Assembly (NCBI RefSeq): GCF_003417465.1
Contig: NZ_QVMV01000027.1
Location: forward strand, 62,001-126,000
Source of the DNA: Wenzhouxiangella sp. 15190
Lineage (GTDB): Bacteria; Pseudomonadota; Gammaproteobacteria; Xanthomonadales; Wenzhouxiangellaceae
DNA: 64,000 bases
Reading direction: 5' to 3'
The notes below the pieces were generated by a model. The model searched no databases, had not been told where the DNA came from, and saw only the letters and a program-made list of their open reading frames with translations. The position numbers were made by a program, and so were the translations under genes. This document shows, piece by piece, positions 3,889-42,713 of the stretch (position 1 is the first letter of the stretch; every line of letters begins with the position of its first letter).

Positions 3889-3896
3889 ACGCCACT

Positions 3897-3910: not shown

Positions 3911-3970
3911 ATACAACTTTTGGAACAGCGGACATACTGGCTCCAGTCTTGATGCACTCGGGAGCCAGCC

Positions 3971-5146: not shown

Positions 5147-5170
5147 GGAGCGTCCTTAGGCACCACACCC

Positions 5171-5229: not shown

Positions 5230-5246
5230 CGAATTTTTAAATCCGC

Positions 5247-5966: not shown

Positions 5967-5968
5967 CA

Positions 5969-10403: not shown

Positions 10404-10404
10404 C

Positions 10405-11274: not shown

Positions 11275-11301
11275 GATCGGCTTGTCCATTCAAGATGCAA
11301 C

Positions 11302-11393
11302 CACTGAAAGCACGGAAGCGCACGGAAGTTTTTGCTTGACCGTTTCGGTCGTCGCACTGCCTTACCCGTAATGGTGTTTCCGTGCCTTCAGTG
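11302..11393. repeat. Inverted repeat between ubiU and ubiV
   Basis: CACTGAAAGCACGGAA (11302-11317) and TTCCGTGCCTTCAGTG (11378-11393) are inverted copies matching at 15 of 16 positions, separated by 60 bases. The left arm is followed by a further CACGGAA and the right by CTTCCGTGG, so the complementarity is loosely repeated. It could form a long hairpin in the ubiUV transcript or be a dispersed repeat. Confidence 0.6.
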
Positions 11394-11421
11394 TCTTCCG
11401 TGGTTCCAGGAATTTGGATTC

Positions 11422-28305: not shown

Positions 28306-28445
28306 TCGAAGAACTCGGGGTAGGCCTGCAAAACCCGGTGCAATTCCTCGTGGCGGCCATCGGGCTGGCCAGGGCCAGGCTGACGCTCGCGATCGGGGTG
28401 CCCGGTTTGTACATGATGATTCGTCCTTTTCGGCGAATGATTCAT
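28284..28445 (-). CDS. Possible 53-residue protein coupled to the PLP decarboxylase
   Basis: A short open frame (53 residues) whose ATG overlaps the decarboxylase stop codon in the arrangement ATGA. Its last part, HEELHRVLQAYPEFFDQPGW, looks protein-like and uses mostly G or C in third positions. It overlaps the 3' end of convergent nnrS by 22 bases. I recognise no family. The tight overlap argues for translation, but short length and lack of known homologs leave it uncertain. Confidence 0.4.
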   Translation of the reverse strand: MNHSPKRTNHHVQTGHPDRERQPGPGQPDGRHEELHRVLQAYPEFFDQPGWTR

Positions 28446-30457
28446 CCCGGCTGATCACGCATGGCCTGCCGCACCAGTTCGGCCAGGTGGCGGCAATAGC
28501 GGTCGAGATAGTTCATCCCTTCATCGTGGCCGGACAGCCAGGGATTCATCAGCGTGTGGCGCAGCAGGAAAATGCTGTCGGCCTGCTCGCCGGAGTCGTC
28601 CGGTTCGTCGACGAAGGTGGACGGGTCCAGGTCGAGTTCGGCCATGAGTCGTTCGGCGGCGCGCTCGCCCAGCTTGTGACGATGAACCACGGTGCGCGAG
28701 CCGAAGAACTCGCGTGAGTGGATATCGACTTCCTCGCCCACGCTCAGGTGCTCGTATAACCGCCGGCCGAAGGCATTCATGCGCGCCAGCGAGCGGTTTC
28801 CGCTCGGGTTGATGGCCAGGCAGACCAGGTTGGTGTCGGGCTCGAAGGGCAGAACGACACGGGCGACGCCGGCAAGCTCGTCGCGCAACTGGTCGATGTG
28901 CTCGAAAAAGTACTCGCAGTTGCGAATAGTCTCGGCGCACAGCCGACCGAAGTTATCCGCATCGAGCGGCAGCACCCGATGGCTCAACCAGGCCCCGGCG
29001 GCGGCCGCGCCGGGCTTGGAGCCTTCGAGAATGTACTGGCCGAGGTTGCGGAAGCGGCGCTCGTACTCGGAATCGGGGACCGTCTCGGCATCATCGAAGA
29101 CATAGGCCGCCTTCTGGCTGATGAAGTCGGTCATGCCGCGGTTGCGCGCGACATAGGCGCCGCAACCGAAGGGCACGTAGCCGAGCTTGTGCGGGTCGAC
29201 GGTGACCGAGTCGACATGCCTGAGCGCGGCGAACGCCTTGTAAACCGGCTCGGAAGGAAACAGGTGGAAGCGTCGCCGCATCTCGGCGTGGTCAAGCAGG
29301 GTCCCGTCCGGGCGATGGAACATGCTGGCCAGGTAGCCGCCCCAGGCGGCGTCGACGTGGATGGCGAACTCCATTCCCTCGCGGCGCCAGCGCTGGCGGG
29401 CGGCGACGATCTCGTGGACGGGGTCGATGGAACCGAACTCGGTGGTGCCGAGAATGCCGACGACGGCCAGGACCGGGCGGCGCTCGTCGGCCAGGCGCGC
29501 CAGCGCATCGTCGAGCGCCTTCGAATCCAGTCGCATGCGCTCGTTGACGGCCACGGGCTCGAGGTTGGCCGCGCCCAGGCCCAGCAGCTTGAGCGCCTTC
29601 TCCCAGGAGTAGTGCGCGGTATCGGCGACCAGCACGACGGGCGTTCCCAGCTCCGGGTGGCGAAGATGGAACTCGGCCATGCCCAGATACTCGACCCGCT
29701 CGGACTCGATCCGGCGCGCCAGGTCCCGCGCCTGGCGTCGATCAAGCTGGTGATCGATGCTCGCCAGCACTTCGCGCCGCAATCGAATGACGTGGTCGAC
29801 CGAAAGATTGAAGAGCACGTGATCGGGGGCGTGAACGAAATCCTCGGGCCCATGCTTGAGCGCACCGGGGTCGAACCCGGCCTCGCGCAGGGCGATCGCG
29901 GCCGCCAGGGGCCAATAGCGCACGGCCCGGAAGTACCACAGCGATTCGTCGTTGGCGATGGTGCCGCCGGAGGTGGCATGGCCCCAGGCGCAGGGCTCCT
30001 GCTCGGGATCGGTGTTGAAACCGAACATCGCGGCCAGTTGCCGGCCCAGCTCCAGCTCCAGCGGTAGCGTCACCGGCGAGGCCTCGTCGGTGACGTGATT
30101 GGGGTTGTAGAGCGTGGTCACCAGCTGCGCGATCAGGCCCGGCAGCAGCAGGTCGGAGGCCATGTGCCCGATATAGCGCGGGTTGAAAAAGGGCGCGGAA
30201 TTTTTCAGCCGGGCGGTCAATCCATGAAGCTCGGTCTTCATGCGGCCGACGAAGCGCCGGTATTCCGGGCCGGTATCGGCCAGCACCGGGATCTGCGGCC
30301 GGTCTTCGGGATGGATATTGCGGCGCCAATAGACATGGTCGCGCAACAACTCGACGAGCACCTTCTCCAGCAACTCGTTGTTCTCGGCGTAGGAACCGAG
30401 AAACAGCGGGCTGAGCCAGTCGACCAGCTCGTCTTCTTCCTGCCTTCTCATGTTCAT
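28442..30457 (-). CDS. Large PLP-dependent decarboxylase (glutamate/tyrosine-decarboxylase family)
   Basis: 671-residue group II decarboxylase, longer than GadB (about 466) through N- and C-terminal extensions. The PLP lysine is K424 in VDPHKLGYVPFG; HVDAAWGGYLASM (367-379) supplies the Asp and stacking contacts, and GHATSGGTIANDES (159-172) binds phosphate. This long branch of putative decarboxylases has no settled substrate; an amino acid is expected. Its start codon is only 16 bases from a perfect Fnr/Dnr box shared with the divergent dnr-like gene, so oxygen- or NO-linked control is likely, though the box is too close to act as a class II activator site here. Confidence 0.85.
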   Translation of the reverse strand: MNMRRQEEDELVDWLSPLFLGSYAENNELLEKVLVELLRDHVYWRRNIHPEDRPQIPVLADTGPEYRRFVGRMKTELHGLTARLKNSAPFFNPRYIGHMASDLLLPGLIAQLVTTLYNPNHVTDEASPVTLPLELELGRQLAAMFGFNTDPEQEPCAWGHATSGGTIANDESLWYFRAVRYWPLAAAIALREAGFDPGALKHGPEDFVHAPDHVLFNLSVDHVIRLRREVLASIDHQLDRRQARDLARRIESERVEYLGMAEFHLRHPELGTPVVLVADTAHYSWEKALKLLGLGAANLEPVAVNERMRLDSKALDDALARLADERRPVLAVVGILGTTEFGSIDPVHEIVAARQRWRREGMEFAIHVDAAWGGYLASMFHRPDGTLLDHAEMRRRFHLFPSEPVYKAFAALRHVDSVTVDPHKLGYVPFGCGAYVARNRGMTDFISQKAAYVFDDAETVPDSEYERRFRNLGQYILEGSKPGAAAAGAWLSHRVLPLDADNFGRLCAETIRNCEYFFEHIDQLRDELAGVARVVLPFEPDTNLVCLAINPSGNRSLARMNAFGRRLYEHLSVGEEVDIHSREFFGSRTVVHRHKLGERAAERLMAELDLDPSTFVDEPDDSGEQADSIFLLRHTLMNPWLSGHDEGMNYLDRYCRHLAELVRQAMRDQPG

Positions 30458-30472
30458 CGATGATCCGGTTTA

Positions 30473-30486
30473 TTGATTTTGATCAA
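30473..30486 (+). promoter_or_regulatory. Perfect Fnr/Dnr box upstream of the dnr-like gene
   Basis: TTGAT-TTTG-ATCAA is a perfect consensus match. The centre (30479.5) is exactly 41.5 bases before the start predicted by the -10 candidate TTTACT (30509-30514), so class II activation of the dnr-like gene is likely. The same box lies 16 bases from the decarboxylase start codon on the other strand. Confidence 0.85.
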
Positions 30487-30566: not shown

Positions 30567-31274
30567 ATGAACAACATCCGCCATCCCACCCGGGATGAAT
30601 TGCACCAGTTTCCGCTGCTGTCGGGGCTCGACGAGACCGAATCGCAACGTGTATTGACCAAGGCACGTGTGGTCACCGTAGCCCGCGGTGAGCACTTGTT
30701 CCACCACGGCGACCCCGCCCGGCGCATCTGGTTGTGTCGTACGGGGCAACTCAAGCTCTTCCGACTGTCCGATGCGGGGCAGGAGAAGATCATCGCCATT
30801 ATCAACCCGGGGCGCAGCTTTGCCGAGGCCACGCTTTTCATGCCCCAGCGAGTGTATCCGGTGCACTGCGCCGCAATTAAACCCAGCGAACTGGTCGGAT
30901 TCGACGCCGACGACCTGGTCAAGACCTTCCACAACGACGCGGAAGCCTGCTTCCGCCTGCTCGGCACGCTGAGCCGACGCATGCACGAGAAGATCAACCA
31001 GATCGAATCGCTGGCACTGCAGAACGCTCATTTGCGCGTGGCTCATTACCTACTCGATGAGTACCGGCGCCGGGACGAACCGAAGACCTTCCGCCTGGAG
31101 TCGAGCAAGAAGCATATCGCCGGGCTGCTGGCCGTCCAGCCGGAGACGCTGTCACGCAGCCTTACCGCGCTGCAGCGCGAGGGCGTGCTCGACATGGACA
31201 CGCGCTACATCACCATCAACGACCCCGAAAGACTCGAAAGTATCGCTCGCGGTGCTCTCGCAACGCCGCACTGA
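30567..31274 (+). CDS. dnr: Dnr-type CRP/FNR-family regulator (NO-responsive candidate)
   Basis: 235 residues, clearly of the Dnr branch: it has the cNMP-like roll (about 18-130), a long dimer helix with MHEKINQIESLALQNAHLRV, and a helix-turn-helix with QPETLSRSL, whose E..SR reads the same TTGAT half-sites as Fnr. Unlike Fnr it has no N-terminal cysteine cluster. Pseudomonas DNR binds heme and activates denitrification genes when NO is present; the same sensing is inferred here. The upstream perfect Fnr box suggests the usual cascade Fnr to Dnr. The convergent ctaA gene ends 13 bases downstream. Confidence 0.88.
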   Translation: MNNIRHPTRDELHQFPLLSGLDETESQRVLTKARVVTVARGEHLFHHGDPARRIWLCRTGQLKLFRLSDAGQEKIIAIINPGRSFAEATLFMPQRVYPVHCAAIKPSELVGFDADDLVKTFHNDAEACFRLLGTLSRRMHEKINQIESLALQNAHLRVAHYLLDEYRRRDEPKTFRLESSKKHIAGLLAVQPETLSRSLTALQREGVLDMDTRYITINDPERLESIARGALATPH

Positions 31275-31287: not shown

Positions 31288-32355
31288 TCAGTCGGCAGCC
31301 GCCAGGCGCCCGGAGTGGGCGGCATCGTGAACGCGCGGGTGACTGACGCGGTAGTCGACGGCGATCACCGCCCCCAGCACCAGCACGGCCACGCCCTGGT
31401 GCAATGTACCCAGCACCACCGGCACATAGAGCATCAGGGTGGCAATGCCCAGCAGCACCTGAATGCCGACAATGCCCACCAGGATGTGAAAGGCGCGCCG
31501 AGCGCCGGCATCGAGGGCATACCTGCGCTGTTGCCACCAGGCGGCAAATGCCACGGTCATGGTGGACAGGGCCAGCACACGGTGCATGAACTGCACCATC
31601 GCCGGGTTCTCGAAGAAATTGCGCCACAGCGGTTCCAGCCCGAGAATCCCGTCGGGAATCCACTGACCGGCCATGAGCGGGAAGTCGTTGTAGACAAAGC
31701 CGGCGCGCAGGCCGGCGACGAAGGCGCCGACGAATACCGTCAACGCGGTCATCACCAACAGCACGATGGTCCAACGCCGCATGGAGTGCGGCCGATGCGC
31801 GGCCGGCATCAGCAGGCCCAGGGCCAGGCGGAACATGAAGGCGAAGATGATCAGGGCCAGGCTCAGATGCGCGGCCAGACGGTAGGGACTGACCCGGGGA
31901 ATGTCGATTAGGCCGCTTTGGACCATGTACCAGCCCATCCAGCCCTGCAGGGCGCCCAGACCGAGGATGCCGAGTAGCGGCCAGCGAAGCCGCCGCGGAA
32001 TCCACCCGCGCCACCAGAACCAGGCCAGCGGCAGGGCGAAAACCAGGCCGAGTGAGCGCGCCAGCAGGCGATGACCGAATTCGAACCAGTAGATCACCTT
32101 GAAGTCGTCGAGCGACATGCCACGGTTGACCTTCTGGTATTCGGGGCTGGCGCGGTAGGCGTCGAACTCGCGCATCCAGCGCTCTTCGGTGGTCGGCGGA
32201 ATCACGCCGGTGACCGGCTGCCATTCGACCATGGAAAGGCCCGAGCCGGTCAGTCGCGTGGCCCCGCCGAGCATGACCAGGGAAAACAGCACCAGGCAGC
32301 AGACCAGAAGCCAGATGCCGATGCGACGCTGATGATGTCGTTCGATGAGGTTCAT
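31288..32355 (-). CDS. ctaA: CtaA/Cox15 heme A synthase
   Basis: 355-residue eight-helix membrane protein that oxidises the heme O methyl to give heme A. Four conserved histidines are seen: FEFGHRLLAR, YRLAAHLSLAL, QFMHRVLAL and LGTLHQGVAVL, the heme ligands of the two half-domains. The opening LVMLGGATRLTGSGLSMVEW is the family N-terminal signature. Only 3 bases separate its start from the DUF1566 gene, so it is in that unit and probably uses the divergent Fnr-controlled promoter region facing the heme-copper operon. Its presence, with CtaB, implies heme A for a neighbouring or distant oxidase. Confidence 0.93.
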   Translation of the reverse strand: MNLIERHHQRRIGIWLLVCCLVLFSLVMLGGATRLTGSGLSMVEWQPVTGVIPPTTEERWMREFDAYRASPEYQKVNRGMSLDDFKVIYWFEFGHRLLARSLGLVFALPLAWFWWRGWIPRRLRWPLLGILGLGALQGWMGWYMVQSGLIDIPRVSPYRLAAHLSLALIIFAFMFRLALGLLMPAAHRPHSMRRWTIVLLVMTALTVFVGAFVAGLRAGFVYNDFPLMAGQWIPDGILGLEPLWRNFFENPAMVQFMHRVLALSTMTVAFAAWWQQRRYALDAGARRAFHILVGIVGIQVLLGIATLMLYVPVVLGTLHQGVAVLVLGAVIAVDYRVSHPRVHDAAHSGRLAAAD

Positions 32356-32358: not shown

Positions 32359-32988
32359 CTAGTTCGTTTCAGTGGCCTGTGCATGGTTTCTGACCAGGCG
32401 AACCGCCTTGGCCTCGGACTTGAGGTCGGCCCGATCCAGGCCGTTGCCGAAGTCCACTGCCCAGGCGCTTTGCGGGTAAAGGCGGAAAGTCTCGCCGGTC
32501 CAGTATTCTCCCGCATTCGCTCCGGGGAAGTATGCCGGATCCACGATCAGGCCGGTCTCGCGCCGTTCGGCTTCACCCAGCGACATCAGTTCCTCACGAC
32601 TCGGCAGCCGCCAGTCGGTGAAACCGCACAGGCTTTGCTCGTTGACGGCCGCGACCAGCGACTGCGTGTCGCAGCTCGATCTCCGGCACTCCCCGCCGTC
32701 TGCCAGTCCCGGTTCGCTCATGTGCCGCTGACGGTCGGTGCTGTACCAGGTGTAGCGATTGTCCCGATCGTGCAAACCATTGTCGTCGTGAACCTGCCAC
32801 ATCAGGCCAACGGCTGGATCGAGCACGCAGCGATGCGGACCCGGATCATCGGGCGAGAGTATATTTCCGGACGCATCAATACGTTGCCAGTTTTCGGACG
32901 GCAACGGCTGCTCGACGCGCTCGTCGCAACCGGCGATCAACCCCAACAGGAGCGCCAGCGCGGCGGGCGGGTAAACGTATCGTGACAT
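32359..32988 (-). CDS. DUF1566 (Lcl-domain) lipoprotein
   Basis: 209-residue lipoprotein with lipobox LIAGC (C21 lipidated). The main part is a DUF1566/Lcl C-terminal domain, recognisable by GLMWQVHDDNG, then CGFTDWRLPSREELMSL, then PDYF-like DPAYFPGANAGEYWTGE and the closing DLKSEAKAVRLVRN. Its role is unknown; C-type-lectin-like folds are often binding domains. It is the first gene of a minus-strand pair with ctaA and is divergent from the heme-copper operon across 218 bases holding two Fnr boxes and an NsrR-like repeat, so it likely belongs to the same response. Confidence 0.75.
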   Translation of the reverse strand: MSRYVYPPAALALLLGLIAGCDERVEQPLPSENWQRIDASGNILSPDDPGPHRCVLDPAVGLMWQVHDDNGLHDRDNRYTWYSTDRQRHMSEPGLADGGECRRSSCDTQSLVAAVNEQSLCGFTDWRLPSREELMSLGEAERRETGLIVDPAYFPGANAGEYWTGETFRLYPQSAWAVDFGNGLDRADLKSEAKAVRLVRNHAQATETN

Positions 32989-33086: not shown

Positions 33087-33100
33087 TTGACGGTCATCAA
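33087..33100 (+). promoter_or_regulatory. Fnr/Dnr box 2, placed for the NO reductase operon
   Basis: TTGAC-GGTC-ATCAA, 9 of 10 to consensus. The -10 candidate TAAACT (33124-33129) puts the start at 33136, 42.5 bases from the box centre, within the working range for class II activation. It lies 120 bases before the first gene. Confidence 0.7.
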
Positions 33101-33206: not shown

Positions 33207-33392
33207 ATGAGCGATTCACAAAACGACCGGGACACCGAAGCTCGTGAACCGGAAGAAGAGCAGGAACGGCTGCCGACCATGCAGCGCATTCTCGACAACC
33301 CGTTTCTGCTGCTGTTTCTCGGCGTCACGATTCCGACCGTGACTTACATCATCTGGGGCGTGATGAACATCGTCACCGTCCCCATCGGCTGA
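33207..33392 (+). CDS. Small single-helix subunit of the heme-copper enzyme
   Basis: 61 residues: a charged N-terminus rich in Asp and Glu, then one membrane helix (about 33-55, LLLFLGVTIPTVTYIIWGVM). It resembles the tiny accessory subunits (IIa/IV) of ba3-type heme-copper enzymes. The ATG at 33207 has an excellent AAGAGGAGG site; an upstream in-frame Met at 33087 lies inside the Fnr box and is rejected. It is the first gene of the ten-gene operon, 15 bases before subunit II. Confidence 0.7.
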   Translation: MSDSQNDRDTEAREPEEEQERLPTMQRILDNPFLLLFLGVTIPTVTYIIWGVMNIVTVPIG

Positions 33393-33407
33393 TCGAGGGA
33401 GCAAGCC

Positions 33408-33953
33408 ATGAGTGCCATTCAACCGCCTGCCAAACGCGTGTGGTGGAAGCAGCCGGTCGATCGTGTCGAGATCGTCTGGATCGCCATCGCGCTCGTCTGG
33501 TGCCTGATCATGTTCCTGTTCATGCCCTACTGGCATGTCTACGGCGAGCAGAACTACTCCGGCGAAGCCTACCGCGTCAATCCGCAGGATTACGTCGCAA
33601 AGGTCAACGAGTTCGTCGAGGAGTACACGGTCCGGCGCGAGACCGACCAGCAGATTCCGGTGGTTCGCCCGCCGGCCGGCGGCGATGTCTACCTGCTCGC
33701 CCGACTCTGGCAGTGGTACCCGATCCTCGAACTCGAGGCCGGTGAAACCTATCGCTTCCACGTCTCCTCGGCCGACTGGCAACACGGCCTGTCGATCCAG
33801 CCGATCAACATCAACTTCCAGGTCCTGCCCGGCTACGACATGGTGCTCAACGTCACCCCGACCGAGCCCGGCGAGTACGCGGTGGTGTGCAACGAGTACT
33901 GCGGCGTGATGCATCACACGATGATGAGCCGCATCTACGTCGTCGACAACTGA
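33408..33953 (+). CDS. CuA-containing subunit II of a heme-copper NO reductase/oxidase (NorS-like)
   Basis: 181 residues with one membrane helix (about 22-40) and a periplasmic cupredoxin domain. The CuA ligands are complete: H126, then C161, E163, C165, H169 and M172 in CNEYCGVMHHTM. The single N-terminal helix and short length match ba3-type and sNOR-type subunit II. It should take electrons from cytochrome c in the periplasm and pass them to subunit I. It begins 15 bases after the small subunit and ends 20 bases before subunit I. The name norS would apply if the enzyme is sNOR. Confidence 0.9.
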   Translation: MSAIQPPAKRVWWKQPVDRVEIVWIAIALVWCLIMFLFMPYWHVYGEQNYSGEAYRVNPQDYVAKVNEFVEEYTVRRETDQQIPVVRPPAGGDVYLLARLWQWYPILELEAGETYRFHVSSADWQHGLSIQPININFQVLPGYDMVLNVTPTEPGEYAVVCNEYCGVMHHTMMSRIYVVDN

Positions 33954-33973
33954 TTCAAGCGAGGGATCCCGTC

Positions 33974-35680
33974 ATGCAACCCCAATTCCGTACCTGTCCC
34001 GATACCGGGCTCGTGTTTCACCGGCCGGCCGAGAACCTGATCAAGGCCAATGCCGTCGCCGCGGTGGTCTTCCTGGCCGTCGGCGGCCTGCTCGGCCTGC
34101 TGGTCGCGCTGACACGCTGGCCAGCGGTGCAGATCCTCAACGCCGAAGACTTCTATACCGTGCTCACCGGCCACGGTGTGGTCATGCTGTTGGTCTGGAT
34201 CCTGTTCTTCGAGGTGGCGCTGCTGTATTTCTGCTCCTCGGTGCTGCTCAGATGCCGCATCGCAACGCCGAGGCTGGGCTGGGTGGCCTTCGCGCTCATG
34301 ATCATCGGCGCGGCCATTACCTCCTGGGCCATCATCGACGGCTCCTCGAGCGTGATGATGACCTCCTACGTCCCCATGCCGGCCGCACCGAGCTTCTACT
34401 TCGGGCTGATCCTGTTCGCCGTCGGCGCCCTGATCGGGGTGTTCATGTTCTTCGGGACGCTCGCCATCGCCCGCGACGAGAAGACCTACGAAGGCTCGAT
34501 CCCGCTGGTGACATTCGGCGCGCTGACCGCGGCCATCCTGGCGGTGTTCACCATCGCCTGCGGCGCCATCATCCTGATTCCGACCTGGCTGTGGTCGATC
34601 GGCTACATCAGCGAGATCGATCCACTCATGTACCGCCTGGTCTGGTGGGGGCTGGGCCATACCTCTCAGCAGATCAACGTCGCCGCGCACGTGTCCGTCT
34701 GGTATGCCGTGGCCGCCATCGTCTTCAACGCCAAGCCGATGTCGGAGAAGGTCAGCCGCGGCGCCTTCTTCCTCTACATCCTGTTCATCTCGGTCGCCTC
34801 GGCCCACCATTTGCTCGGCGACCCGGGCCTGAGCACGGAATGGAAGATCTTCAACACCAGCTACGTGATGTACCTGGCGGTGCTCGCCAGCCTGGTTCAC
34901 GGCCTGACCGTGCCCGGCTCGATCGAGGTCGCCCAGCGTGAGAAGGGCCACAACAAGGGCCTGTTCGAATGGCTCAGAAAGGCGCCCTGGGGCAACCCGG
35001 TGTTCTCCGGCATGTTCCTGTCGCTGGTGGGTTTCGGCTTCATCGGCGGCATTTCCGGTGTGGTGATGGGCAGCGAGCAGGTCAACTTCCTGATCCACAA
35101 CACCATCTACGTGCCCGGTCACTTCCACGCCACGGTCGTGCTCGGCACCACGCTCGCCTTCATGGCCATGAGCCTGTGGCTGGTGCCGGTGCTGTTCCGG
35201 CGCAAGCTGTTCATGCCCGGCCTGGCCAAATGGCAGCCCTGGCTGTTCGGCATCGGAACCGCACTGCAGACCTTCTTCATGATGGGCGCGGGCACCCTGG
35301 GCGTGTCGCGCCGCCACTGGGACATGGCCTTTACCGGTTCGGCCTTCGAATGGACCTACCCGGGCATGGCCTACACCATGATGGCACTCAACGGCATCAG
35401 CGCGATCATCGCCGTGCTCGGCGGCATCGCCTTCGTGGTCGTCATCGTCGGTACAGTACTGTTCGGCCAGAAGACCAGCCCGGCCGAATACTCGGCCACT
35501 CGCCCGGGCATCCTGCTTGGACCGGCCGAGTCGCTTTCCGGTCACAGCCACGTCGGCCTGGGCGTGAAGGGCTTCCCGGCACCGGGCACTTTCGTGCTGG
35601 CGATGTTCCTGCTGCTCATCTTCGTCGTCTACTTCTTCGTCAACTACGGCTACCTGGCCTCGGTCTGGCGGTTCAGCTAA
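33974..35680 (+). CDS. Heme-copper subunit I lacking the cross-linked Tyr (NorY/sNOR-like)
   Basis: 568 residues, about 12-14 membrane helices. Heme and copper ligands are all present: low-spin heme H67 and H385, high-spin heme H383 (VPGHFHATVVLG), CuB H229 and the pair H278/H279 (SVASAHHLLGDPG). At the fourth residue after H229, where O2 reductases have the cross-linked Tyr (HPxVY), this protein has Q233 (GHTSQQIN). Loss of that Tyr is the hallmark of heme-copper NO reductases, and the set CuA subunit plus Tyr-less subunit I plus SenC is that of sNOR (norSY-senC). O2 reduction is therefore unlikely but not excluded. Start ATG at 33974; the upstream frame runs through subunit II. Confidence 0.88.
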   Translation: MQPQFRTCPDTGLVFHRPAENLIKANAVAAVVFLAVGGLLGLLVALTRWPAVQILNAEDFYTVLTGHGVVMLLVWILFFEVALLYFCSSVLLRCRIATPRLGWVAFALMIIGAAITSWAIIDGSSSVMMTSYVPMPAAPSFYFGLILFAVGALIGVFMFFGTLAIARDEKTYEGSIPLVTFGALTAAILAVFTIACGAIILIPTWLWSIGYISEIDPLMYRLVWWGLGHTSQQINVAAHVSVWYAVAAIVFNAKPMSEKVSRGAFFLYILFISVASAHHLLGDPGLSTEWKIFNTSYVMYLAVLASLVHGLTVPGSIEVAQREKGHNKGLFEWLRKAPWGNPVFSGMFLSLVGFGFIGGISGVVMGSEQVNFLIHNTIYVPGHFHATVVLGTTLAFMAMSLWLVPVLFRRKLFMPGLAKWQPWLFGIGTALQTFFMMGAGTLGVSRRHWDMAFTGSAFEWTYPGMAYTMMALNGISAIIAVLGGIAFVVVIVGTVLFGQKTSPAEYSATRPGILLGPAESLSGHSHVGLGVKGFPAPGTFVLAMFLLLIFVVYFFVNYGYLASVWRFS

Positions 35681-35683
35681 ACC

Positions 35684-36610
35684 ATGGCGCGCCAGCACGC
35701 ACAAACGCAGACCCTGCCGGCGGTCGCCCCCGACGTGGCGCGACCCCGGCCGGGCCTGCTGTCCATCGCGCTGACCCTGTTCAAGGTCCGCATCGGGTCG
35801 GCGATCACGCTCTCGGCCCTTGGCGGCGCCGTGCTGGCCGGCGGCGGCTGGCCAGCGGCGGCCGATACCATCATCCTCGCCCTGTCGGTCCTGCTGGCGG
35901 CTTCGGGGGCCGGCGCCTTCAACCATTACTGGGATCGGGACATCGACGCAGTCATGGGCCGAACGCGCAAGCGCCCCTTCGTCAACGGCACGCTCGAGGC
36001 ACACACCGGCTGGCCGGTGGCCTTCCTGGCGATGATCGCGGCCGGCTCGATCCTCGGCGGTTGGTGGTTCAACCCGGCCTCCGGCCTGTTCGTGGCCGCC
36101 GGTGCGCTCACCTACGCGCTGGTCTATACCGTATGGCTCAAGCGCCGCAACGATTGGAACATCGTCATTGGCGGCGCGGCCGGAAGCTGGGCGGTACTCG
36201 CCGGCGCGGCCGCCACCGGCCGGATCGCCGATCCGGACGTGATGCTGCTCGCCGCCGTCCTGTTTCTCTGGACGCCCTCGCATTTCTGGTCGCTGGCGAT
36301 CGTCATCGCCGAAGACTACCGGCGTGCCGGCGTGCCGATGCTGCCGGTCACTCGCGGCATCAACACGGCGGTGCGCTGGAACCTGATCAACACCGCGATG
36401 CTGGTTACCGCCACACTATGGCTGACCGCACGCAGCGGCTCGATGCTGGTCTGGCTGCTGGCCGGAACCGGCGCGGCCTGGCTGGCCTGGACCACCCTGC
36501 TGATGGCGCGCGAGCCGTCCGCACCTCGTGCGATGACAGCATTCAAGGCCTCCCTCATCCAGCTCGGCCTGCTGCTGGCCGGCTTGTTTGCCATGCACGC
36601 GGTGCCATGA
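35684..36610 (+). CDS. ctaB: CtaB protoheme IX farnesyltransferase (heme O synthase)
   Basis: 308-residue UbiA-family membrane prenyltransferase. The first Asp-rich motif NHYWDRDIDAVMGRTRKRP is textbook heme O synthase, and the second region with LFLWTPSHFWSLAI follows. It adds a farnesyl chain to heme B. Only 3 bases separate it from subunit I and none from SenC, so it is an integral member of the operon. With ctaA nearby, this suggests that the operon's enzyme carries heme A or O rather than only heme B, which is notable if the enzyme is an NO reductase. Confidence 0.94.
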   Translation: MARQHAQTQTLPAVAPDVARPRPGLLSIALTLFKVRIGSAITLSALGGAVLAGGGWPAAADTIILALSVLLAASGAGAFNHYWDRDIDAVMGRTRKRPFVNGTLEAHTGWPVAFLAMIAAGSILGGWWFNPASGLFVAAGALTYALVYTVWLKRRNDWNIVIGGAAGSWAVLAGAAATGRIADPDVMLLAAVLFLWTPSHFWSLAIVIAEDYRRAGVPMLPVTRGINTAVRWNLINTAMLVTATLWLTARSGSMLVWLLAGTGAAWLAWTTLLMAREPSAPRAMTAFKASLIQLGLLLAGLFAMHAVP

Positions 36611-37414
36611 ATGAACTGGGCTGCCCCCGGAAGACTCGCCCCGGCGCTGCTGGCGTTCGGGCTCCTGCTGCCGACCGCCGGCGTCTTCGCCGCCCGCGGT
36701 GATGCGCTCGAGATCAGCCAGGAAGCCATCGGCAACCGCGTTTCCGACCTGACCCTGATCGACAGCAACGGCGAGCGGCTGAAGCTGCACGATCTGCTCG
36801 AGCGGCCGCTGGGCATCAGCCTGATCTACACCGGCTGCGCGCATTCGTGCAGCGTCACCACGCGCTATCTCGACCGGGTTGTCCAGACCGCACGCGAGGC
36901 GATGGGCGAGGACAGCTTCGGCATGCTCACCATCGGCTTCGATCACGGCGTCGACACGCCCGAGTCGATGGCCAATCACGCCCGGCGTCACGGCGTTAAC
37001 GATCCCGACTGGCAGTTCGTCGTCGCCGAACGAAGCGATGAACTCGAGCGGCTGATCGAACAACTGGGTTTCGTGTACACGCCGAGCCCACGCGGCTTCG
37101 ACCACACCGTGCAGGTCAGCCTCCTCGATCGCGACGGCACGCTCTACCGGCAGATCTACGGCGAGACCTTCGAGGCACCGAAGCTGGTCGAGCCACTCAA
37201 GGACCTGGTCTGGCGCCGGCCGAAAAGCGAACAGGGACTGCTGGCCGGCATCGGCGAACGGATTCGCCTGTTCTGTACCGTCTACGATGCGCGCGGCGAC
37301 CGCTACTACTTCGACTACTCGATGTTCATCGGCCTGGGCCTGGGTGGCCTCTTCCTGCTGCTCGTCGGCGGCTGGACCGGCCGGGAAGTGCTCAAGCGCC
37401 GGGGGTCAGAATGA
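36611..37414 (+). CDS. senC: SCO1/SenC copper chaperone with C-terminal membrane anchor
   Basis: 267 residues. A signal/anchor helix (1-27) precedes a thioredoxin-fold SCO domain with copper-binding C76 and C80 (TGCAHSC; the family usual is CPxxC, here the Pro is replaced by Ala) and the third ligand His in GFDHTVQVS. A second helix near 236-256 anchors the C-terminus, so the domain faces the periplasm between two helices. It should load CuA or CuB of the enzyme. It starts immediately after the ctaB stop and overlaps the next gene by 4 bases. Confidence 0.88.
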   Translation: MNWAAPGRLAPALLAFGLLLPTAGVFAARGDALEISQEAIGNRVSDLTLIDSNGERLKLHDLLERPLGISLIYTGCAHSCSVTTRYLDRVVQTAREAMGEDSFGMLTIGFDHGVDTPESMANHARRHGVNDPDWQFVVAERSDELERLIEQLGFVYTPSPRGFDHTVQVSLLDRDGTLYRQIYGETFEAPKLVEPLKDLVWRRPKSEQGLLAGIGERIRLFCTVYDARGDRYYFDYSMFIGLGLGGLFLLLVGGWTGREVLKRRGSE

Positions 37415-38988
37415 GTTCCGCGCAAGCCCGACCGAGACCCGTCTGGCCGGCGCGCGCTCTGGCCCGTGGCGAATCGGTGCTGTCGAATGCCTTTGGAGGC
37501 GCCGCCAATCCTTTCCACCATCTCGGCGCACTGGCCATCTATTGCCTGTACATCGCGCTGGTCACCGGCATCTACCTGTTCGTTTTCTACAGCACCAACC
37601 TCGAAGGCGCCTGGCGCTCGGTCGAAGCCATCACCCACGAGCAGTGGATCATCGGCGGCGTCATGCGCAGCCTGCACCGCTACAGCTCGGATGCTGCCGT
37701 GCTGCTGCTGGCGCTGCACATGCTGCGCGAGTTAGTGCGATTGCGCCACACCGGGGCGCGCTGGTTCTCCTGGCTGACGGGCATGCCGCTGATCTGGATC
37801 GTGCTCATCTTCGGCATTTCCGGCTACTGGATGGTCTGGGACCAGCTTGCCGCCTGGGTCGCCACGGCCAGCGCGCGACTGCTCGACTGGCTGCCGATCT
37901 TCAGCGATCCGATGGGCAGCAGTTTCGTCAGCAACAAAACCGTCAGCGGCCGGCTTTTCACCCTGATCGGCTTCATTCATCTGGTCGGTCTACCGATCAT
38001 CCTGGTTCTGGGCATCTGGTTTCACTTGCTGCGCGTGCGCTACCCCCGCATTCACCCGACGCGCAAGCTCATGCTCGGCAGCCTCGCCGGCCTGCTGGTG
38101 CTGTCGCTGGTCGTGCCGGTGACCAGCCATGCCCCGGCCGACCTGGAGGCCGTGCCCGGCGTACTGGCCATCGACTGGTTCTACCTGGCCGTTTTTCCAT
38201 TGCAGTCGCTGTCCTCACCCGGCACGATCTGGCTGGCCGGCACCGGGGGCACCCTGCTGCTGGCCGCGCTGCCGTGGATCCTGCCGCGCCGGCGCCAGCC
38301 GGTTGCCGAGGTTCACCTTCCGGACTGCACGGGCTGTGGCTTCTGCGCCGAGGACTGCCCCTACGGCGCGATCGACATGGTGCCGCGCACGGACGGTCGC
38401 AACTTCGAACTCGAGGCCAGGGTCAACGCCTCGCTGTGCGTGTCATGCGGTATCTGCACCGGTTCCTGCCCCTCATCGTCGCCGTTTCGCCAGCGCACAC
38501 CGCTGACGACCGGCATCGAGATGCCGCACTTCACCATGGACGACTTCCGGAACGAGCTCGACCGTGCCCGCGACTCGGAACTCACCGGTGACCGGATCCT
38601 GGTCTTCGGCTGCGACCACGGCGTGGACGTGGAAAAGGCCGAGATCGGGACCGCCCACAGCATGGTGCTGCCTTGTGTCGGCCTGCTGCCGCCGCCCGGC
38701 ATCGATTACGCGCTGCGCAACAGCGGCTACGCCGGCGTGGCCGTGGCCGGCTGCGCCGACTGCGACTGTCATCACCGACTGGGTGAGCGCTGGACGCAGG
38801 AGCGCATCGAGCGGGAACGCCAGCCCGGCCTGCGCAAGCGCGTGCCGCGGGAACGCCTGTTCACGTTCTGGGCCAAACCCGGGCAGGAGAAGGATCTGAG
38901 CCTGCGTCTTGAGGCGTTTTCGGCGGGCCTGGACAAGGCCTCGGCACCGGAAGCACCGCGGCTGGCCATTCGGAGGACCGGCACATGA
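37411..38988 (+). CDS. Cytochrome b6 / 2[4Fe-4S] ferredoxin / MvhD-like fusion protein
   Basis: 525 residues in three parts. Residues 35-230 are a cytochrome b6-like membrane domain with two b-heme pairs: H89/H103 and H190/H205, the b6-type spacing. Residues 300-356 are a bacterial ferredoxin with two CxxCxxCxxxCP motifs (C306-C309-C312-C316 and C343-C346-C349-C353). Residues 395-456 resemble the MvhD/FrhD delta-subunit fold with GCDHGVD, LPCVGLLP and AGCADCDCHHRLG. The last two parts should face the cytoplasm. Such a protein could move electrons between a soluble donor and membrane hemes or quinone. I know no characterised protein with this order. It overlaps both neighbours by 4 bases (ATGA). 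Confidence 0.85.
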   Translation: MSSAQARPRPVWPARALARGESVLSNAFGGAANPFHHLGALAIYCLYIALVTGIYLFVFYSTNLEGAWRSVEAITHEQWIIGGVMRSLHRYSSDAAVLLLALHMLRELVRLRHTGARWFSWLTGMPLIWIVLIFGISGYWMVWDQLAAWVATASARLLDWLPIFSDPMGSSFVSNKTVSGRLFTLIGFIHLVGLPIILVLGIWFHLLRVRYPRIHPTRKLMLGSLAGLLVLSLVVPVTSHAPADLEAVPGVLAIDWFYLAVFPLQSLSSPGTIWLAGTGGTLLLAALPWILPRRRQPVAEVHLPDCTGCGFCAEDCPYGAIDMVPRTDGRNFELEARVNASLCVSCGICTGSCPSSSPFRQRTPLTTGIEMPHFTMDDFRNELDRARDSELTGDRILVFGCDHGVDVEKAEIGTAHSMVLPCVGLLPPPGIDYALRNSGYAGVAVAGCADCDCHHRLGERWTQERIERERQPGLRKRVPRERLFTFWAKPGQEKDLSLRLEAFSAGLDKASAPEAPRLAIRRTGT

Positions 38989-39503
38989 AAGCGCTCGCAC
39001 TCAGCGGACAGGGTCTGACCTGGGCGGTGCTGGCCGCGCTCGTCGGCCTGTTCGGACAGGGGCCGTCGTTTACGCCATACGAGCCCGGACAGGCACTGAT
39101 CAAGCTGTCGATGGCGCATTTGCCCGAGCGGCTCGAGCCCTGCCGGCAACTGAGCGAAGCCGAGCGCGAGGCGCTGCCCCCGACACGGCGCGTCGAGGAA
39201 GTGTGCGGACGCGAGCGGGCGCCGACCCGCTTCGAACTGCGTCTCGACGGCGAGCTGTTGGTCGCCGAGACGGTTGAACCGGCCGGGTTGTCCAGCGGTG
39301 GCCGCTCCTACTACCTCGAGTATCTGCCGGTCGATCCGGGTCGCTACACGGTCACGGTCCGGCTGGCCGATACCCCTCGCACGACGGGCTTCGACCTCGA
39401 GCGTGAAATGAATCTGGACCTGAATGCCGGCGAGTCGGCGCTGATCGAGATCGGCGACGACGGCGTGTCGCTCGGCGGTGTTGAAACGGAGGAATCGTCA
39501 TGA
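38985..39503 (+). CDS. Exported protein of unknown function in the heme-copper operon
   Basis: 172 residues with an N-terminal hydrophobic signal or anchor (about 8-26) and a soluble part expected in the periplasm. Two cysteines (C53, C74) could pair. The C-terminal half has a beta-sandwich feel (GRSYYLEYLPVDPGRYTVTV). I recognise no family. ATGA overlaps with the genes before and after it show that it is made together with the cytochrome b fusion and the second heme-copper-like subunit, so it may be a periplasmic part or assembly factor of that complex. Confidence 0.65.
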   Translation: MKALALSGQGLTWAVLAALVGLFGQGPSFTPYEPGQALIKLSMAHLPERLEPCRQLSEAEREALPPTRRVEEVCGRERAPTRFELRLDGELLVAETVEPAGLSSGGRSYYLEYLPVDPGRYTVTVRLADTPRTTGFDLEREMNLDLNAGESALIEIGDDGVSLGGVETEESS

Positions 39504-40897
39504 ACTCATCGAACTGGAACCTGGCCGTCCCCTCGGATTTCCGCGGCCGGCTGGCGCGCGCCTGGCTGCTGACGGCCGTCGGCGCGCTGCTGATTTCCGG
39601 GCTGTTCGTCATCCTGATCGTTGCTTCGCGCACGCCCGGAGTAGAGCAGCTGTTTCCGCTCAAGAACTTCTTTCACCTGGCCATCGTCGTGCACGTGGAC
39701 TTCTCCGTGCTGGTGTGGTTCGCCGCCTTCGGGGCGGTGATGTGGACCCTGGTCAGTACACCAGCGGCTCGCCGCAGTGCCTGGCTCGGCCTGGGCCTGG
39801 TCATCGCCGGCTCGGTCTTGCTGGCCGCCTCGCCGTTCAGGCCGGGCGAGGCGATCATGAGCAACTACGTGCCGGTACTCGACAACACCCTGTTCCTTTC
39901 GGGTCTCTCGGTACTCGGCATCGGCGTGCTGGTGAGCAGTCTGCGCACGCTGTTCAACCCCCTGCCGGGCAGCATCCAGCCGGCCGAAGCCGGCGTCATG
40001 CGCTTCGGCGTGCAAACCGGCGTGATCGCCCTGGTACTGGCCGGCGGACTGCTGCTGTGGTCGCTGTTCGCGCTGCCGCCCTGGCTTGACGGTGCCCAGT
40101 ACTACGAGGTGCTGTTCTGGGGCGGCGGGCACGTGCTGCAGTTCGCGTGGGTACAGTTCATGCTGGTCGCCTGGTTGTGGCTGGCGGCCGCCGCCGGCCT
40201 GCGCTTTCTCGTCGGACCGCGCCTGGTGCTGGGCCTGCTGCTGGCCGGGGTGTTGCCGGCGTTTCTGGCCGTCTGGGGCTATCTGTACTTCGAGGTCGGC
40301 GGTCCCGGCCATCGCACGTTCTTCATCTGGCTGATGGCCGCCGGCGGCGGCCTGGCGGCGGGCCCACTGGGCCTGGCGCTGGTGCTCGGCTGGATGCGCA
40401 GCCAATCCACGGCCGACTCGCGCCAGCGTGGCCTGCGCACGGCTCTGCTGTTCTCCATCGGCCTGTTCGGCCTCGGCGGCGCGCTGGGTTTCCTGATCGA
40501 CGAGTCCAACACCATCGTGCCGGCCCACTACCACGGCTGCATCGTCGCCATCACCCTGACTTTCATGGCGCTTTCGCTGCATCTGCTGCCTCGTTTCGGC
40601 TTTGCCCCGGCAGGCGAACGCCTGACCCGGCTGATGCCCTGGGTCTACGGCGGCGGCCAGGTGCTGCACGTCTTCGGCCTGGCATTGGCCGGGGGCCACG
40701 GCGTGCAGCGCAAGACCGCGGGTGCCGCCCAGGGCCTCGAGGGCCTGGCGCAAGTGGGCGGCATGGCGGTGATGGGCGCCGGCGGGCTGATCGCCATCAT
40801 CGGCGGCATCCTGTTCCTGATCGCCTTCGCTCGCGCGCTGATTTCGCGTGCTCCCGGTATTGACGTCCACATCGACAAGGCGCCGCACCATGCTTGA
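39500..40897 (+). CDS. Divergent heme-copper-like subunit I (second paralog)
   Basis: 465 residues, about 12 membrane helices. Heme positions survive: H65 (VVHVDFSVLVWF) and H345 for a low-spin heme and H343 (VPAHYHGCIV) for a second heme. The CuB site is altered: H211 is present in FWGGGHVLQF, but helix 7 has a single His (GGPGHRTFFIW, H271) instead of the HH pair, and there is no Tyr four residues after H211 (F215). A third-metal ligand could be supplied by another residue such as E265, or the metal may be lost. It may be an unusual NO reductase, an electron-transfer heme protein, or a quinol-binding partner of the cytochrome b fusion. It overlaps both neighbours. Confidence 0.8.
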   Translation: MNSSNWNLAVPSDFRGRLARAWLLTAVGALLISGLFVILIVASRTPGVEQLFPLKNFFHLAIVVHVDFSVLVWFAAFGAVMWTLVSTPAARRSAWLGLGLVIAGSVLLAASPFRPGEAIMSNYVPVLDNTLFLSGLSVLGIGVLVSSLRTLFNPLPGSIQPAEAGVMRFGVQTGVIALVLAGGLLLWSLFALPPWLDGAQYYEVLFWGGGHVLQFAWVQFMLVAWLWLAAAAGLRFLVGPRLVLGLLLAGVLPAFLAVWGYLYFEVGGPGHRTFFIWLMAAGGGLAAGPLGLALVLGWMRSQSTADSRQRGLRTALLFSIGLFGLGGALGFLIDESNTIVPAHYHGCIVAITLTFMALSLHLLPRFGFAPAGERLTRLMPWVYGGGQVLHVFGLALAGGHGVQRKTAGAAQGLEGLAQVGGMAVMGAGGLIAIIGGILFLIAFARALISRAPGIDVHIDKAPHHA

Positions 40898-41093
40898 GGT
40901 CCTGCTCTTCGGCGTGTTCGTCCTGCTCGCCTATTTCGTGGCTCACCATGCCGTCATGGCCCTGGAGCGGCGCCACGGCCGGCCGCTGGGATTGTGGCGG
41001 ACGCTGTGGTTTTTCCTGATCTTTCTTGCGCTGCTGCTGGCAGCCCAATGGCTCACCCCGTATCTGCTGAACCTGGGAGGCACGAACCCGTGA
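40890..41093 (+). CDS. Small two-helix membrane protein
   Basis: 67 residues with two hydrophobic segments (about 3-22 and 37-58) joined by a basic loop (ALERRHGRPLG). It starts 8 bases inside the end of the heme-copper-like gene and ends 4 bases into the ferritin-like gene, so it is clearly part of the coupled operon. I recognise no family; size and place suggest a small structural subunit of the membrane complex. Confidence 0.65.
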   Translation: MLEVLLFGVFVLLAYFVAHHAVMALERRHGRPLGLWRTLWFFLIFLALLLAAQWLTPYLLNLGGTNP

Positions 41094-41560
41094 TCGACGA
41101 CCTGGAACGATTCCTGCGCCTGGCGGCGAAGCTCGAAGCCGACGCCGCCGACGGCTATGCCCGGCTGGCCGAAATCATGCGACCCGACGGGCACCATGAA
41201 GTGGCCGACATGTTCGCCAAGTTCGGCGAGTTCTCACGGCTGCACCTGGCCGAAGTCCGCGAACTGCAAAAGGACGAGCTCGACCGCGAGTTCGACCCGC
41301 GCGTCGACGAGCCGGAGTGGCCGGACGCCCACAGCCCCGAAAACCCCTTGGCACTGGCGCCGCTGACCGACATCACGCCGAAAGGCGCCATCGACATGGC
41401 GCTCGAGACCGAGCGGCGGGCCTGCGACTTCTATTCGGCCGTGGCCGGCCAGACCCGCTCGGATCGCGTCCAGGAGCTGGCTCAGATGTTCGCTGAGGAA
41501 GAAGGTGAGCACGTCGAGCACCTGCAGCGCTGGCTCGGGCGCCTGGACAGCCCGCAATAG
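41090..41560 (+). CDS. Ferritin-like / rubrerythrin-type di-iron protein
   Basis: 156-residue four-helix protein. Possible di-iron ligands are E16, E47 with H52 (EFSRLHLAE), E106 (ALETERRACDFY) and E138/H141 (EEEGEHVEHL); the last motif is the ExxH of the rubrerythrin family. No C-terminal rubredoxin cysteines exist. It begins with GTG at 41090, overlapping the previous stop by 4 bases (GTGA), which decides the start. Peroxide or NO detoxification, or iron supply to the hemes and clusters of the operon, are possible. Last gene of the ten-gene operon. Confidence 0.8.
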   Translation: MIDDLERFLRLAAKLEADAADGYARLAEIMRPDGHHEVADMFAKFGEFSRLHLAEVRELQKDELDREFDPRVDEPEWPDAHSPENPLALAPLTDITPKGAIDMALETERRACDFYSAVAGQTRSDRVQELAQMFAEEEGEHVEHLQRWLGRLDSPQ

Positions 41561-41676: not shown

Positions 41677-42027
41677 ATGCGTGTTCTGATTACCGCCCTG
41701 GTTCTTTCCGCCGGCAGCCTGCTGGCCCATTCCGCCCTGGCGGCCGATGCCGCCGCGGGCGAGGCCAAGTTCAAGCAGCTCTGCTCCACCTGCCACGGCC
41801 AGTCCGGCCAGGGCGACGGCCCGGCTTCTGCCAGCCTCAACCCGCAACCGCGCGACATGAGCGACAGCGAGTGGCAGGAATCGGTGGACGATGACCACAT
41901 TCGCACCGTCATCAAGGACGGCGGAGCGGCTGTCGGCCTGGCAGCGACCATGGCCCCGTTCGGCCATTCTCTGAACGATGAGGACCTGGACAACCTGGTC
42001 GCCTACATCCGCAGTCTCGACGACTGA
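41677..42027 (+). CDS. Periplasmic monoheme cytochrome c
   Basis: 116 residues: signal peptide (1-22, ALA cleavage), one heme motif C36-C39-H40 (CSTCH) and the likely sixth ligand M92 (ATMAPFG) of a class I cytochrome. The pattern GDGPASASLNPQPRDMSD is usual in c-type domains of oxidase and alternative-complex partners. It starts after AAGGAG. Its place directly after the heme-copper operon makes it the natural electron donor to the CuA subunit. Confidence 0.92.
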   Translation: MRVLITALVLSAGSLLAHSALAADAAAGEAKFKQLCSTCHGQSGQGDGPASASLNPQPRDMSDSEWQESVDDDHIRTVIKDGGAAVGLAATMAPFGHSLNDEDLDNLVAYIRSLDD

Positions 42028-42059
42028 AACCTTAGACGGTCTCCGTGTTTGGCAAGGGC

Positions 42060-42713
42060 ATGAAGATCCGACGCATCCGACTGATCGTCGCGCTCGTCCT
42101 GCTTATGGCCGTGACCCTGGCGACCGGGCTGCTGGTCGGGCGGACGCCGCCCGCCGGCACGGGCTGGGGTTCGGCCGAGCCGGACGTCCGTGCCGTGATG
42201 TGGCCCGAACCACTGCCCCTGGCCGACGTCGAGCTCGAAACCCAGCACGGCGCGCCCTTCACCCGGTCCGACCTGGAAGGGCAGTGGAGCCTGATGTTCT
42301 TCGGCTATCTGCAGTGTCCGGACGTTTGCCCCACCAGCCTGTCGGCGATGCGCGAAATGCGCCAGCTGCTCGCCCAGCGCGACGGCAACGATGACTTGCA
42401 GTATTACTTCGTCTCGGTCGATCCGATCAACGACGATCCGGCCGAAATGGTCGACTACCTTGCAGGCTTCGACCCGGGCTTCATCGGGCTGCATGGCCCG
42501 AAGCAGCAGATCCGCAGCCTGGCCGACAGCATGGCCGTCAAGTTCGAGCGTTTCGAGAACGACAGCGGCTATGTCAGCATCGATCACACCAGTTCGGTGA
42601 TGATGATCGACCCCAGTGGCCGGATGGTCGGCGCTCTGCCGCCACCGCTGGTGCCCGAACAGATGGTCCGGCGCTACCTGGACCTTAGAAATTACCTGGA
42701 GAACGCGCCATGA
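42060..42713 (+). CDS. SCO1/SenC family protein (second copy)
   Basis: 217-residue copper chaperone with an N-terminal membrane anchor (about 5-23) and a periplasmic thioredoxin fold. The copper pair is in CPDVCPTSLS, the regular CPxxC form, and the third ligand His is in YVSIDHTSSVMMID. A GTG at 42045 would add five residues; ATG at 42060 (MKIRR) is preferred for its basic start before the anchor. Two SCO proteins in one island, one without the Pro and one with it, suggest separate copper targets. It overlaps ubiT by 4 bases. Confidence 0.88.
   Translation: MKIRRIRLIVALVLLMAVTLATGLLVGRTPPAGTGWGSAEPDVRAVMWPEPLPLADVELETQHGAPFTRSDLEGQWSLMFFGYLQCPDVCPTSLSAMREMRQLLAQRDGNDDLQYYFVSVDPINDDPAEMVDYLAGFDPGFIGLHGPKQQIRSLADSMAVKFERFENDSGYVSIDHTSSVMMIDPSGRMVGALPPPLVPEQMVRRYLDLRNYLENAP

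Follow-up and report, generated by a model that had tools for sequence, protein, structure and literature searches.

An eNOR-type nitric oxide reductase operon with a candidate electron-input cytochrome b partner in Wenzhouxiangella

The 64,000-nucleotide stretch of contig NZ_QVMV01000027.1 from Wenzhouxiangella sp. 15190 analyzed here (the window; its host genome measures 3.13 Mb and is 99.8% complete) carries, from position 33207 to 41560, ten open frames (g1 to g10), all on the forward strand. They are read below as the operon of a nitric oxide (NO) reductase (NOR) of the eNOR type, in which a cytochrome b protein and its companion (g6 and g7) would probably serve as a dedicated route of electron input. 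Each gene overlaps the next or lies within 20 bp of it, the widest gap (20 bp) falling in the earlier part of the run; from 37411 onward successive genes overlap by 4, 4, 4, 8 and 4 bp. Internal starts were chosen for genes 1, 3, 9 and 10, whose longest open frames begin at 33087, 33887, 40848 and 40994, respectively, and the last two overlaps (8 and 4 bp) are contingent on the starts chosen for genes 9 and 10. With these starts, the original prediction, made from the letters of the window, of a same-strand run of ten genes overlapping by 4 to 8 bases from 37411 holds, and domain matches bear out the content that it proposed: CuA subunit, heme-copper subunit I, CtaB, SenC, a cytochrome b/ferredoxin/MvhD fusion and a ferritin-like protein. 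The order g1 to g10 is kept, as far as the contigs extend, in 6 further genomes of the genus (n=30) that possess the NOR subunit; therefore the arrangement is not due to chance, and the ten-gene operon is real. A promoter and terminator scan was uninformative (no promoters against 1.1 expected, and 4 terminator-like sites against 5.1 expected).

The first of the ten genes, g1 (33207-33392), encodes a 61-residue subunit with a single transmembrane (TM) segment and no family match in the domain searches. It is followed by g2 (33408-33953), a CuA subunit II with a COX2 domain, g3 (33974-35680), a heme-copper subunit I with a COX1 domain, g4 (35684-36610), the heme O synthase CtaB (TIGR01473, 227 bits, above cut-off), and g5 (36611-37414), a SCO/SenC-like protein matching Pfam SCO1-SenC and carrying a hydrophobic C-terminal stretch. 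The ligand histidines of g3 (H67, H229, H278, H279, H383 and H385) are invariant in an alignment of 17 rows. The same alignment has, in 17/17 rows, a TM6 glutamine (Gln233; H229 to Q233) at the position of the cross-linked tyrosine, which was fixed by alignment to ba3 oxidase. Hence g3 lacks the cross-linking TM6 Tyr of the B-type O2 reductases, as had been predicted, and also the active-site TM6 Glu of cNOR and qNOR, with Gln in its stead. In g2, the residues of the CuA ligand pattern (H126, C161, E163, C165, H169 and M172) are invariant across 18 rows, and C76 and C80 of g5 are not invariant in an 18-row alignment.

A Gln at the Tyr position marks eNOR and an Asn marks sNOR, according to Table A4 of PMC8756737, and eNOR is counted among the biochemically characterized NORs in PMC11388526. 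In a tree of 36 proteins, g3 clusters with Gln-bearing proteins of Thermus and Thermomicrobium (support 98/94), no protein in the tree being a biochemically proven eNOR, and the Tyr-bearing B-type enzymes of Haloarcula, Natrinema, Deinococcus, Geobacillus, Methylobacterium and Caballeronia fall apart from it. These features, together with the genomic context, support well the assignment of g1 to g5 to an eNOR-type NO reductase, which can be held with considerable confidence. The initial suggestion that the first half corresponds to sNOR (norSY-senC) is rejected on account of the residue at the Tyr position. A separate observation concerns plasmid 4 of Thermus thermophilus NAR1, which carries an eNOR-like gene with the TM6 Gln (9992-11677) some 4.5 kb away from a gene annotated as a cd1-type nitrite reductase; TM10 of its product reads HFK, the low-spin heme His apparently being replaced by Lys. 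The presence of this gene contrasts with the description of the strain as devoid of NO reductase genes in PMC7694296.

The second half of the operon opens with g6 (37411-38988), in which a b6-type cytochrome b is joined to a Fer4 region for two [4Fe-4S] clusters and to an FlpD/MvhD domain, and g7 (38985-39503), a TM-anchored, presumably periplasmic beta-sandwich protein without a family match. The b-heme histidines of g6 (89, 103, 190 and 205) are kept in 22/22 g6 rows, in the g6 of a Defluviimonas plasmid and in three reductase fusions described below, and eight kept cysteines are enough for the two [4Fe-4S] clusters. The FlpD cysteines C422, C448 and C453 are invariant in both alignments in which they were inspected (A4 and A7) and align with cysteines of MvhD; C401 is invariant in A4 only, some rows of A7 ending short of it. 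As a profile, g6 matches cytochrome b6 and MvhD structures, the latter found after a single-sequence search of the PDB with the FlpD part had returned an artificial protein only. The PEWY motif of bc1/b6f is replaced by a DWFY-type motif and the Qo-like region is retained; the domain search gave a Rieske match for none of the ten gene products of the operon. For its part, g7 accompanies the cytochrome b-FlpD protein in 52/52 loci and has two invariant cysteines. Its predicted structure (predicted local distance difference test, pLDDT, 93.2) consists of a helix plus a beta-sandwich, for which a fold search of the PDB gave no convincing relative (best E 2.7e-3, with carbohydrate-binding and Ig-like folds). 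Pfam at E 5 yielded 17 families, each matched by at most 4 of 24 members, the best match (4e-4) being that of a single member to an unrelated domain.

The same cytochrome b family also occurs with other C-termini. In the locus L085 (genome G185), the genes at 3675-6224 and 10653-12254 share 873 identical bp of cytochrome b and differ thereafter: the cytochrome b runs into flavodoxin, FAD-binding and NAD-binding domains in one copy and into the 2x[4Fe-4S]-FlpD region in the other. In two further loci, L157 and L177, Fer2, FAD-binding and NAD-binding domains come after the cytochrome b. A second cytochrome b copy with such an NAD(P)H-reductase-type module is seen in two eNOR loci. Since one family of cytochrome b is fused to NAD(P)H-reductase-type modules, the C-terminus of g6 is read as a probable cytosolic electron input. 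Three side observations can be recorded: the gene pair of L085 might reflect a natural module swap, gene conversion or an assembly effect; L177 (6586-8571), a separate locus of genome G111, places its cytochrome b-Fer2-FAD-NAD fusion outside any eNOR operon; and the cytochrome b-FlpD gene stands in two tandem copies in L154, L155 and L156.

Comparative genomics reveals a close linkage of the two halves. Within the genus, g3 is present at 79% identity or more in 7 of the 30 genomes (three matches at 24-25% identity being taken as other members of the heme-copper oxidase (HCO) family) and g6 in 6 of those 7, the contig of the seventh genome ending within g5; g8 is found in 6. Across 369 genomes of the class, g3 and g6 co-occur in 33, and each is found alone in one: the contig of the genome with the lone g3 (G293) ends after this gene, and that with the lone g6 (G244) ends in g5. 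The 34 genomes with g3 are what is left of 35 after removal of G391 (230 bits). In a phylum sample, matches below 100 bits among 121 genomes cover the cytochrome b part only and were taken as bc1 cytochrome b; 33 genomes with g6 are left besides that of the window (G000), and g3 is found in 28 of them as against 1 of 47 without g6, the latter having been picked in list order and not at random. Viewed from the loci with g3, the cytochrome b is present in 39/45; of the six without it, a contig edge truncates four, and the remaining two (G186 and G297) have g6-g7 at another place in the genome. A Defluviimonas plasmid carries g1 to g7 followed by a hemerythrin gene. In the Proteobacteria sampled, the cytochrome b protein is therefore an almost invariable partner of the eNOR operon. 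Co-occurrence in other genomes, which had been put forward as a check, thus extends far beyond the strain of the window, and a strain-specific join of two operons is rejected, the linkage recurring in the genus, class and phylum samples. The near one-to-one co-occurrence of the cytochrome b protein and the NOR subunit likewise weakens the notion of two separate systems handling NO or O2.

Downstream of g7 lies g8 (39500-40897), which has a COX1 domain match of 42.6 bits and an AlphaFold model (pLDDT 91.7) with the HCO fold. H65, H211 (TM6), H343 and H345 are invariant in 43/43 rows of an alignment (A6) that left out five g8 rows (L015, L089, L105, L111 and L113); over the wider set of 48 rows, the TM7 His-His pair of the CuB site occurs in none, L111 having its first His only and a Tyr in place of the TM2 His. 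The missing pair means that no CuB site is expected in g8, and its candidacy as an ordinary second NO or O2 reductase is rejected. The second heme-copper-like subunit of the original prediction is hence upheld in its fold and heme ligands, with the addition that it lacks the two TM7 histidines of CuB. The position of the active-site Tyr is Phe in the window protein and in 43/48 rows, with Tyr in three, Leu in one and Gly in one. The three homologues with Tyr despite the lack of the TM7 His pair are those of L081, L083 and L085, and they complicate a simple picture of g8, as do six of the 48 rows with a His within four columns of the pair.

In the class, g8 is present in 46/369 genomes (47 before the removal of G389, E 9e-4) and in 28 of the 34 with g3. 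The four named relatives with g8 are metagenome-assembled genomes (MAGs), three of Wenzhouxiangella sp. and one of an Ectothiorhodospiraceae bacterium. Eighteen genomes have g8 without eNOR, and 8 of 14 such loci fetched have ctaA, ctaB or SCO genes nearby; among 22 g8 genes apart from the operon, none is preceded by a 10/10 Fnr/Dnr box (see below) and one by a 9/10 site, and a search for g8 on plasmids found none. It is best described as an optional companion of the eNOR operon; any role for g8, be it that of a heme-only electron carrier or of a gas or heme sensor, would be a guess. Class genomes with g3 and without g8 carry a hemerythrin gene after g7 in four cases (G140, G196, G243 and G257), neither gene in G361, and a truncated locus in G293. 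A hemerythrin gene also follows g7 in L144, L161-L163, L165, L182, L183 and L189; in Wenzhouxiangella a ferritin-like, diiron-type protein, g10, is nearby instead. This last gene of the run (41090-41560, GTG start chosen) encodes a rubrerythrin/ferritin-like protein (Pfam Rubrerythrin, 37 bits). Before it, g9 (40890-41093) specifies a 67-residue two-helix protein without a family match, whose place in the gene order is shared by the genus and by one MAG named Ectothiorhodospiraceae; weak opposite-strand matches in L079 and L082 are taken as chance.

The operon sits in an NO and denitrification setting. A Fnr/Dnr-type box, TTGAC-N4-ATCAA (33087-33100), lies 106 bp upstream of g1, and another, TTGAT-N4-ATCAA (30473-30486), in front of a forward-strand gene for a Crp/Fnr-family regulator (30567-31274), which combines a Crp-type helix-turn-helix with a cyclic nucleotide-binding-like (cNMP-like) domain and lacks the FNR-type N-terminal Cys cluster, its only cysteines being at 57, 101 and 128. 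Exact TTGAY-N4-RTCAA sites number 4 in the 64-kb window against 0.08 expected. Of 42 related loci, 34 have a best site of 10/10 upstream of g1 and 38 one of 9/10 or better, as compared with 10/10 sites in 62/1680 random windows, which were drawn from the same loci and so may include the true box, and in 1/1680 shuffles. A homologue of the regulator stands beside the operon in all six other genus loci that extend so far (L012, L013, L016, L039, L040, where it is partial and cut by the contig end, and L043). Box and regulator fit Dnr, no family model having named the protein as such, and Fnr is also compatible. A gene for an NnrS family protein, associated with NO (27151-28305, forward strand; Pfam NnrS, 175 bits), lies further upstream, and of the 60 loci that carry g3 or the cytochrome b, 15 also contain nirS at 40% identity or more. 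The window genome itself has nirS (63% identity over 518 residues), a nirK-like gene below cut-off, and, as a separate gene preceded by a box, a NorB with the TM6 Glu, beside which open frames were read by eye as norC, norQ and norD; a search of this genome for NosZ found no match beyond the CuA part of g2.

Flanking the run, divergent reverse-strand genes for the heme A synthase CtaA (31288-32355; Pfam COX15-CtaA, 365 bits) and an Lcl_C-domain protein (32359-32988; PF07603, with a lipoprotein-like start by eye) are kept in the genus, as is the order of two forward-strand genes after g10, which encode a small cytochrome c matched in Pfam (g11, 41677-42027) and a second SCO protein (g12, 42045-42713; Pfam SCO1-SenC, 129 bits). 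Between nnrS and the Dnr-like gene lies a reverse-strand tyrosine-decarboxylase-like gene (28442-30457), which also neighbors the dnr homologue in L013 and L039. Elsewhere in the window, a Crp/Fnr-type gene (3160-3888) whose product has several N-terminal cysteines appears Fnr-like by eye; further Fnr/Dnr boxes follow it (3897-3910) and occur at 12486.

The physiology of a relative is pertinent here. Strain AB-CW3 of Wenzhouxiangella is described in PMC7691419 as denitrifying with no recognized NOR and with two extra enzymes of the HCO family; according to the same paper the strain did not grow with nitrite, from which it formed N2O much more slowly. One genus genome (G024, locus L016) has the operon with both g3 and g8 and is taken as that of AB-CW3, so that this strain very probably carries the g3 operon; the two HCOs of the operon would then be the two extra enzymes of that report.

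Taken together, these observations favor, with somewhat better than even confidence, an eNOR-type NO reductase operon with g6-g7 as its dedicated electron-input partner. At low O2 and in the presence of NO or nitrite, a Dnr/Fnr-type regulator would bind the upstream box and switch the operon on. The small TM subunit g1, the CuA subunit g2 and the catalytic subunit g3 would form the reductase, for which CtaB (g4) and SCO (g5) would supply heme and copper assembly. The cytosolic 2x[4Fe-4S]/FlpD domain of g6 might accept electrons from a reduced cytosolic donor, and these would travel via its two b hemes to the periplasmic face of the membrane, where g7 would be its partner; there they could be taken up by quinone, at a modified Qo-like site, or by the CuA protein without an intermediate. 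The reduction of NO to N2O would take place in g3, with g8 and the diiron proteins (g10 or, elsewhere, hemerythrin) in accessory roles, perhaps in handling NO or O2. A bolder version, in which g6-g7 and g1-g3 form one membrane complex, with the b cytochrome leading electrons from a cytosolic Fe-S or NAD(P)H source directly across the membrane to the CuA of the heme-copper NO reductase and g8 as a copper-free HCO-fold heme subunit, is a tentative and rather unlikely extension.

Several points weigh against a dedicated electron-input partner in an eNOR operon. Five of the 33 g6-bearing genomes of the phylum sample (completeness 69-96%) have no g3, and one without g6 has it. In G186 and G297, g6-g7 lie elsewhere in the genome, apart from g1-g5; in L150 (G433) and L158 (G451) they stand beside nirS with no g1-g5 in the fetched stretch, g3 being found elsewhere in both genomes. 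The eNOR-like loci (not whole genomes) of Thermus and Thermomicrobium are without g6-g8, hence some eNORs may do without g6. The reductase fusions come from three loci only, one of them outside any eNOR operon, and the L085 copy, identical to the g6 gene over 873 bp, might stem from a recent duplication or from the assembly. As to the presumed cytosolic donor of g6, the window genome gave no FlpD protein besides g6 itself. As for the setting, the best upstream site reaches 7 or 8 of 10 in four of the 42 loci, and with a canonical-looking cNOR in the window genome the eNOR is not its sole NOR.

Among several readings of g6, electron input from the cytosol remains on balance the best, and its main rival is a role in assembly or maturation, in which g6-g7 would use cytosolic electrons to reduce copper, or else a thiol or a heme intermediate, at the periplasmic face of the membrane, with g4 and g5 supplying heme O and copper. 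CcoG/CcoH of the cbb3 oxidase would be the model for this. The position of g6-g7, mostly directly after g5 and often with ctaB or ctaA, fits such a role, and the combination of a cytosolic ferredoxin domain with a TM-anchored beta-sandwich would resemble CcoG/FixH. The NAD(P)H-module swaps, for their part, fit any transmembrane reductase. However, g6 has both of its b-heme sites complete and keeps a Qo-like region, which exceeds the needs of a metal reductase, no FixH appears among the weak Pfam matches of g7, and g6-g7 can adjoin nirS instead of g1-g5. An assembly factor thus appears unlikely, though it deserves weight.

That the first half is instead a high-affinity O2 reductase, the operon serving microaerobic respiration, is improbable. 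Its B-type fold and CuB ligands are compatible with this, and an O2 role has been argued for the sNOR of Nitrosomonas in PMC6967387. In addition, the window genome has an exact box at a distance of 90 bp from a further gene of the COX1 family, taken as ccoN, and therefore the box alone does not signify NO. Yet the cross-linking Tyr is replaced by an invariant Gln, a denitrifier without another recognized NOR appears to carry the operon (PMC7691419), and the context comprises nnrS, the Dnr-like gene and nirS. Electron flow through g6 may also be considered in the opposite sense. Such a reversal, with quinol or periplasmic electrons passing via the b hemes to the cytosolic Fe-S/FlpD part and a cytosolic acceptor, for instance in biosynthesis, is highly doubtful: FlpD/MvhD domains do pass electrons between cytosolic redox proteins, g6 has its profile match to MvhD, and g6-g7 of G433 have nirS and a heme d1 gene in their vicinity, but the modules fused in place of the FlpD region are of the NAD(P)H-reductase type, and reducing a low-potential acceptor from quinol needs energy, with no Rieske or bifurcating partner among the operon genes.

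If proteobacterial eNOR operons do carry a dedicated electron-input cytochrome, the accepted view of NO reduction, the N2O-forming step of denitrification, in which NORs draw on cytochrome c or quinol, is incomplete. Genes for eNOR are easily missed, as their subunit I carries the annotation of an oxidase, and the cytochrome b-FlpD protein with g7 offers a marker set for finding such denitrifiers. For AB-CW3, the operon offers a definite candidate for the NOR that is missing there, and it may explain how some denitrifying bacteria handle NO without any textbook enzyme; the g8 family, in turn, would be a branch of the HCO fold without a CuB site. The idea of a NOR joined to a second membrane redox module survives, without the sNOR label, for a CuA-containing heme-copper NOR-type module. 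The second half of the operon was rightly called an unrecognized combination, in that no description of it as a complex was found in the literature searched; the main eNOR paper lies outside that literature, and the novelty of the cytochrome b partner of eNOR is accordingly provisional.

Set against known systems, the closest kin of g2-g3 is eNOR, with which they share the Gln at the Tyr position, the six ligand histidines and the CuA subunit; the relatives in Thermus and Thermomicrobium differ from the Wenzhouxiangella operon in that their loci lack g6-g7 and g8. The likeness to the sNOR of ammonia oxidizers lies in the CuA subunit, the B-type subunit I and SenC, and the difference in the Asn of sNOR where g3 has Gln. 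The cytochrome b of bc1/b6f has the four b-heme histidines and the cd-helix region in common with g6, whereas g6 has the DWFY-type motif and a cytosolic 2x[4Fe-4S]-FlpD tail, and its operon has no gene for a Rieske protein or for cytochrome c1 or f. The best NCBIfam match of the cytochrome b part, at 104 bits, is ExtP, a b-type cytochrome of a selenite/tellurite operon (NF040969), far below the cut-off of 290 and with a model that spans the cytochrome b part only. CcoG/CcoH of cbb3 assembly, compared by description only, likewise pair a membrane protein having a cytosolic ferredoxin domain with a TM-anchored periplasmic beta-sandwich, and g6 differs from them by its b hemes and FlpD domain. 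Finally, the MvhD/FlpD proteins of heterodisulfide reductase-hydrogenase complexes resemble the C-terminal domain of g6, with cysteines in common in the profile alignment, the difference being that in g6 this domain is fused to a cytochrome b.

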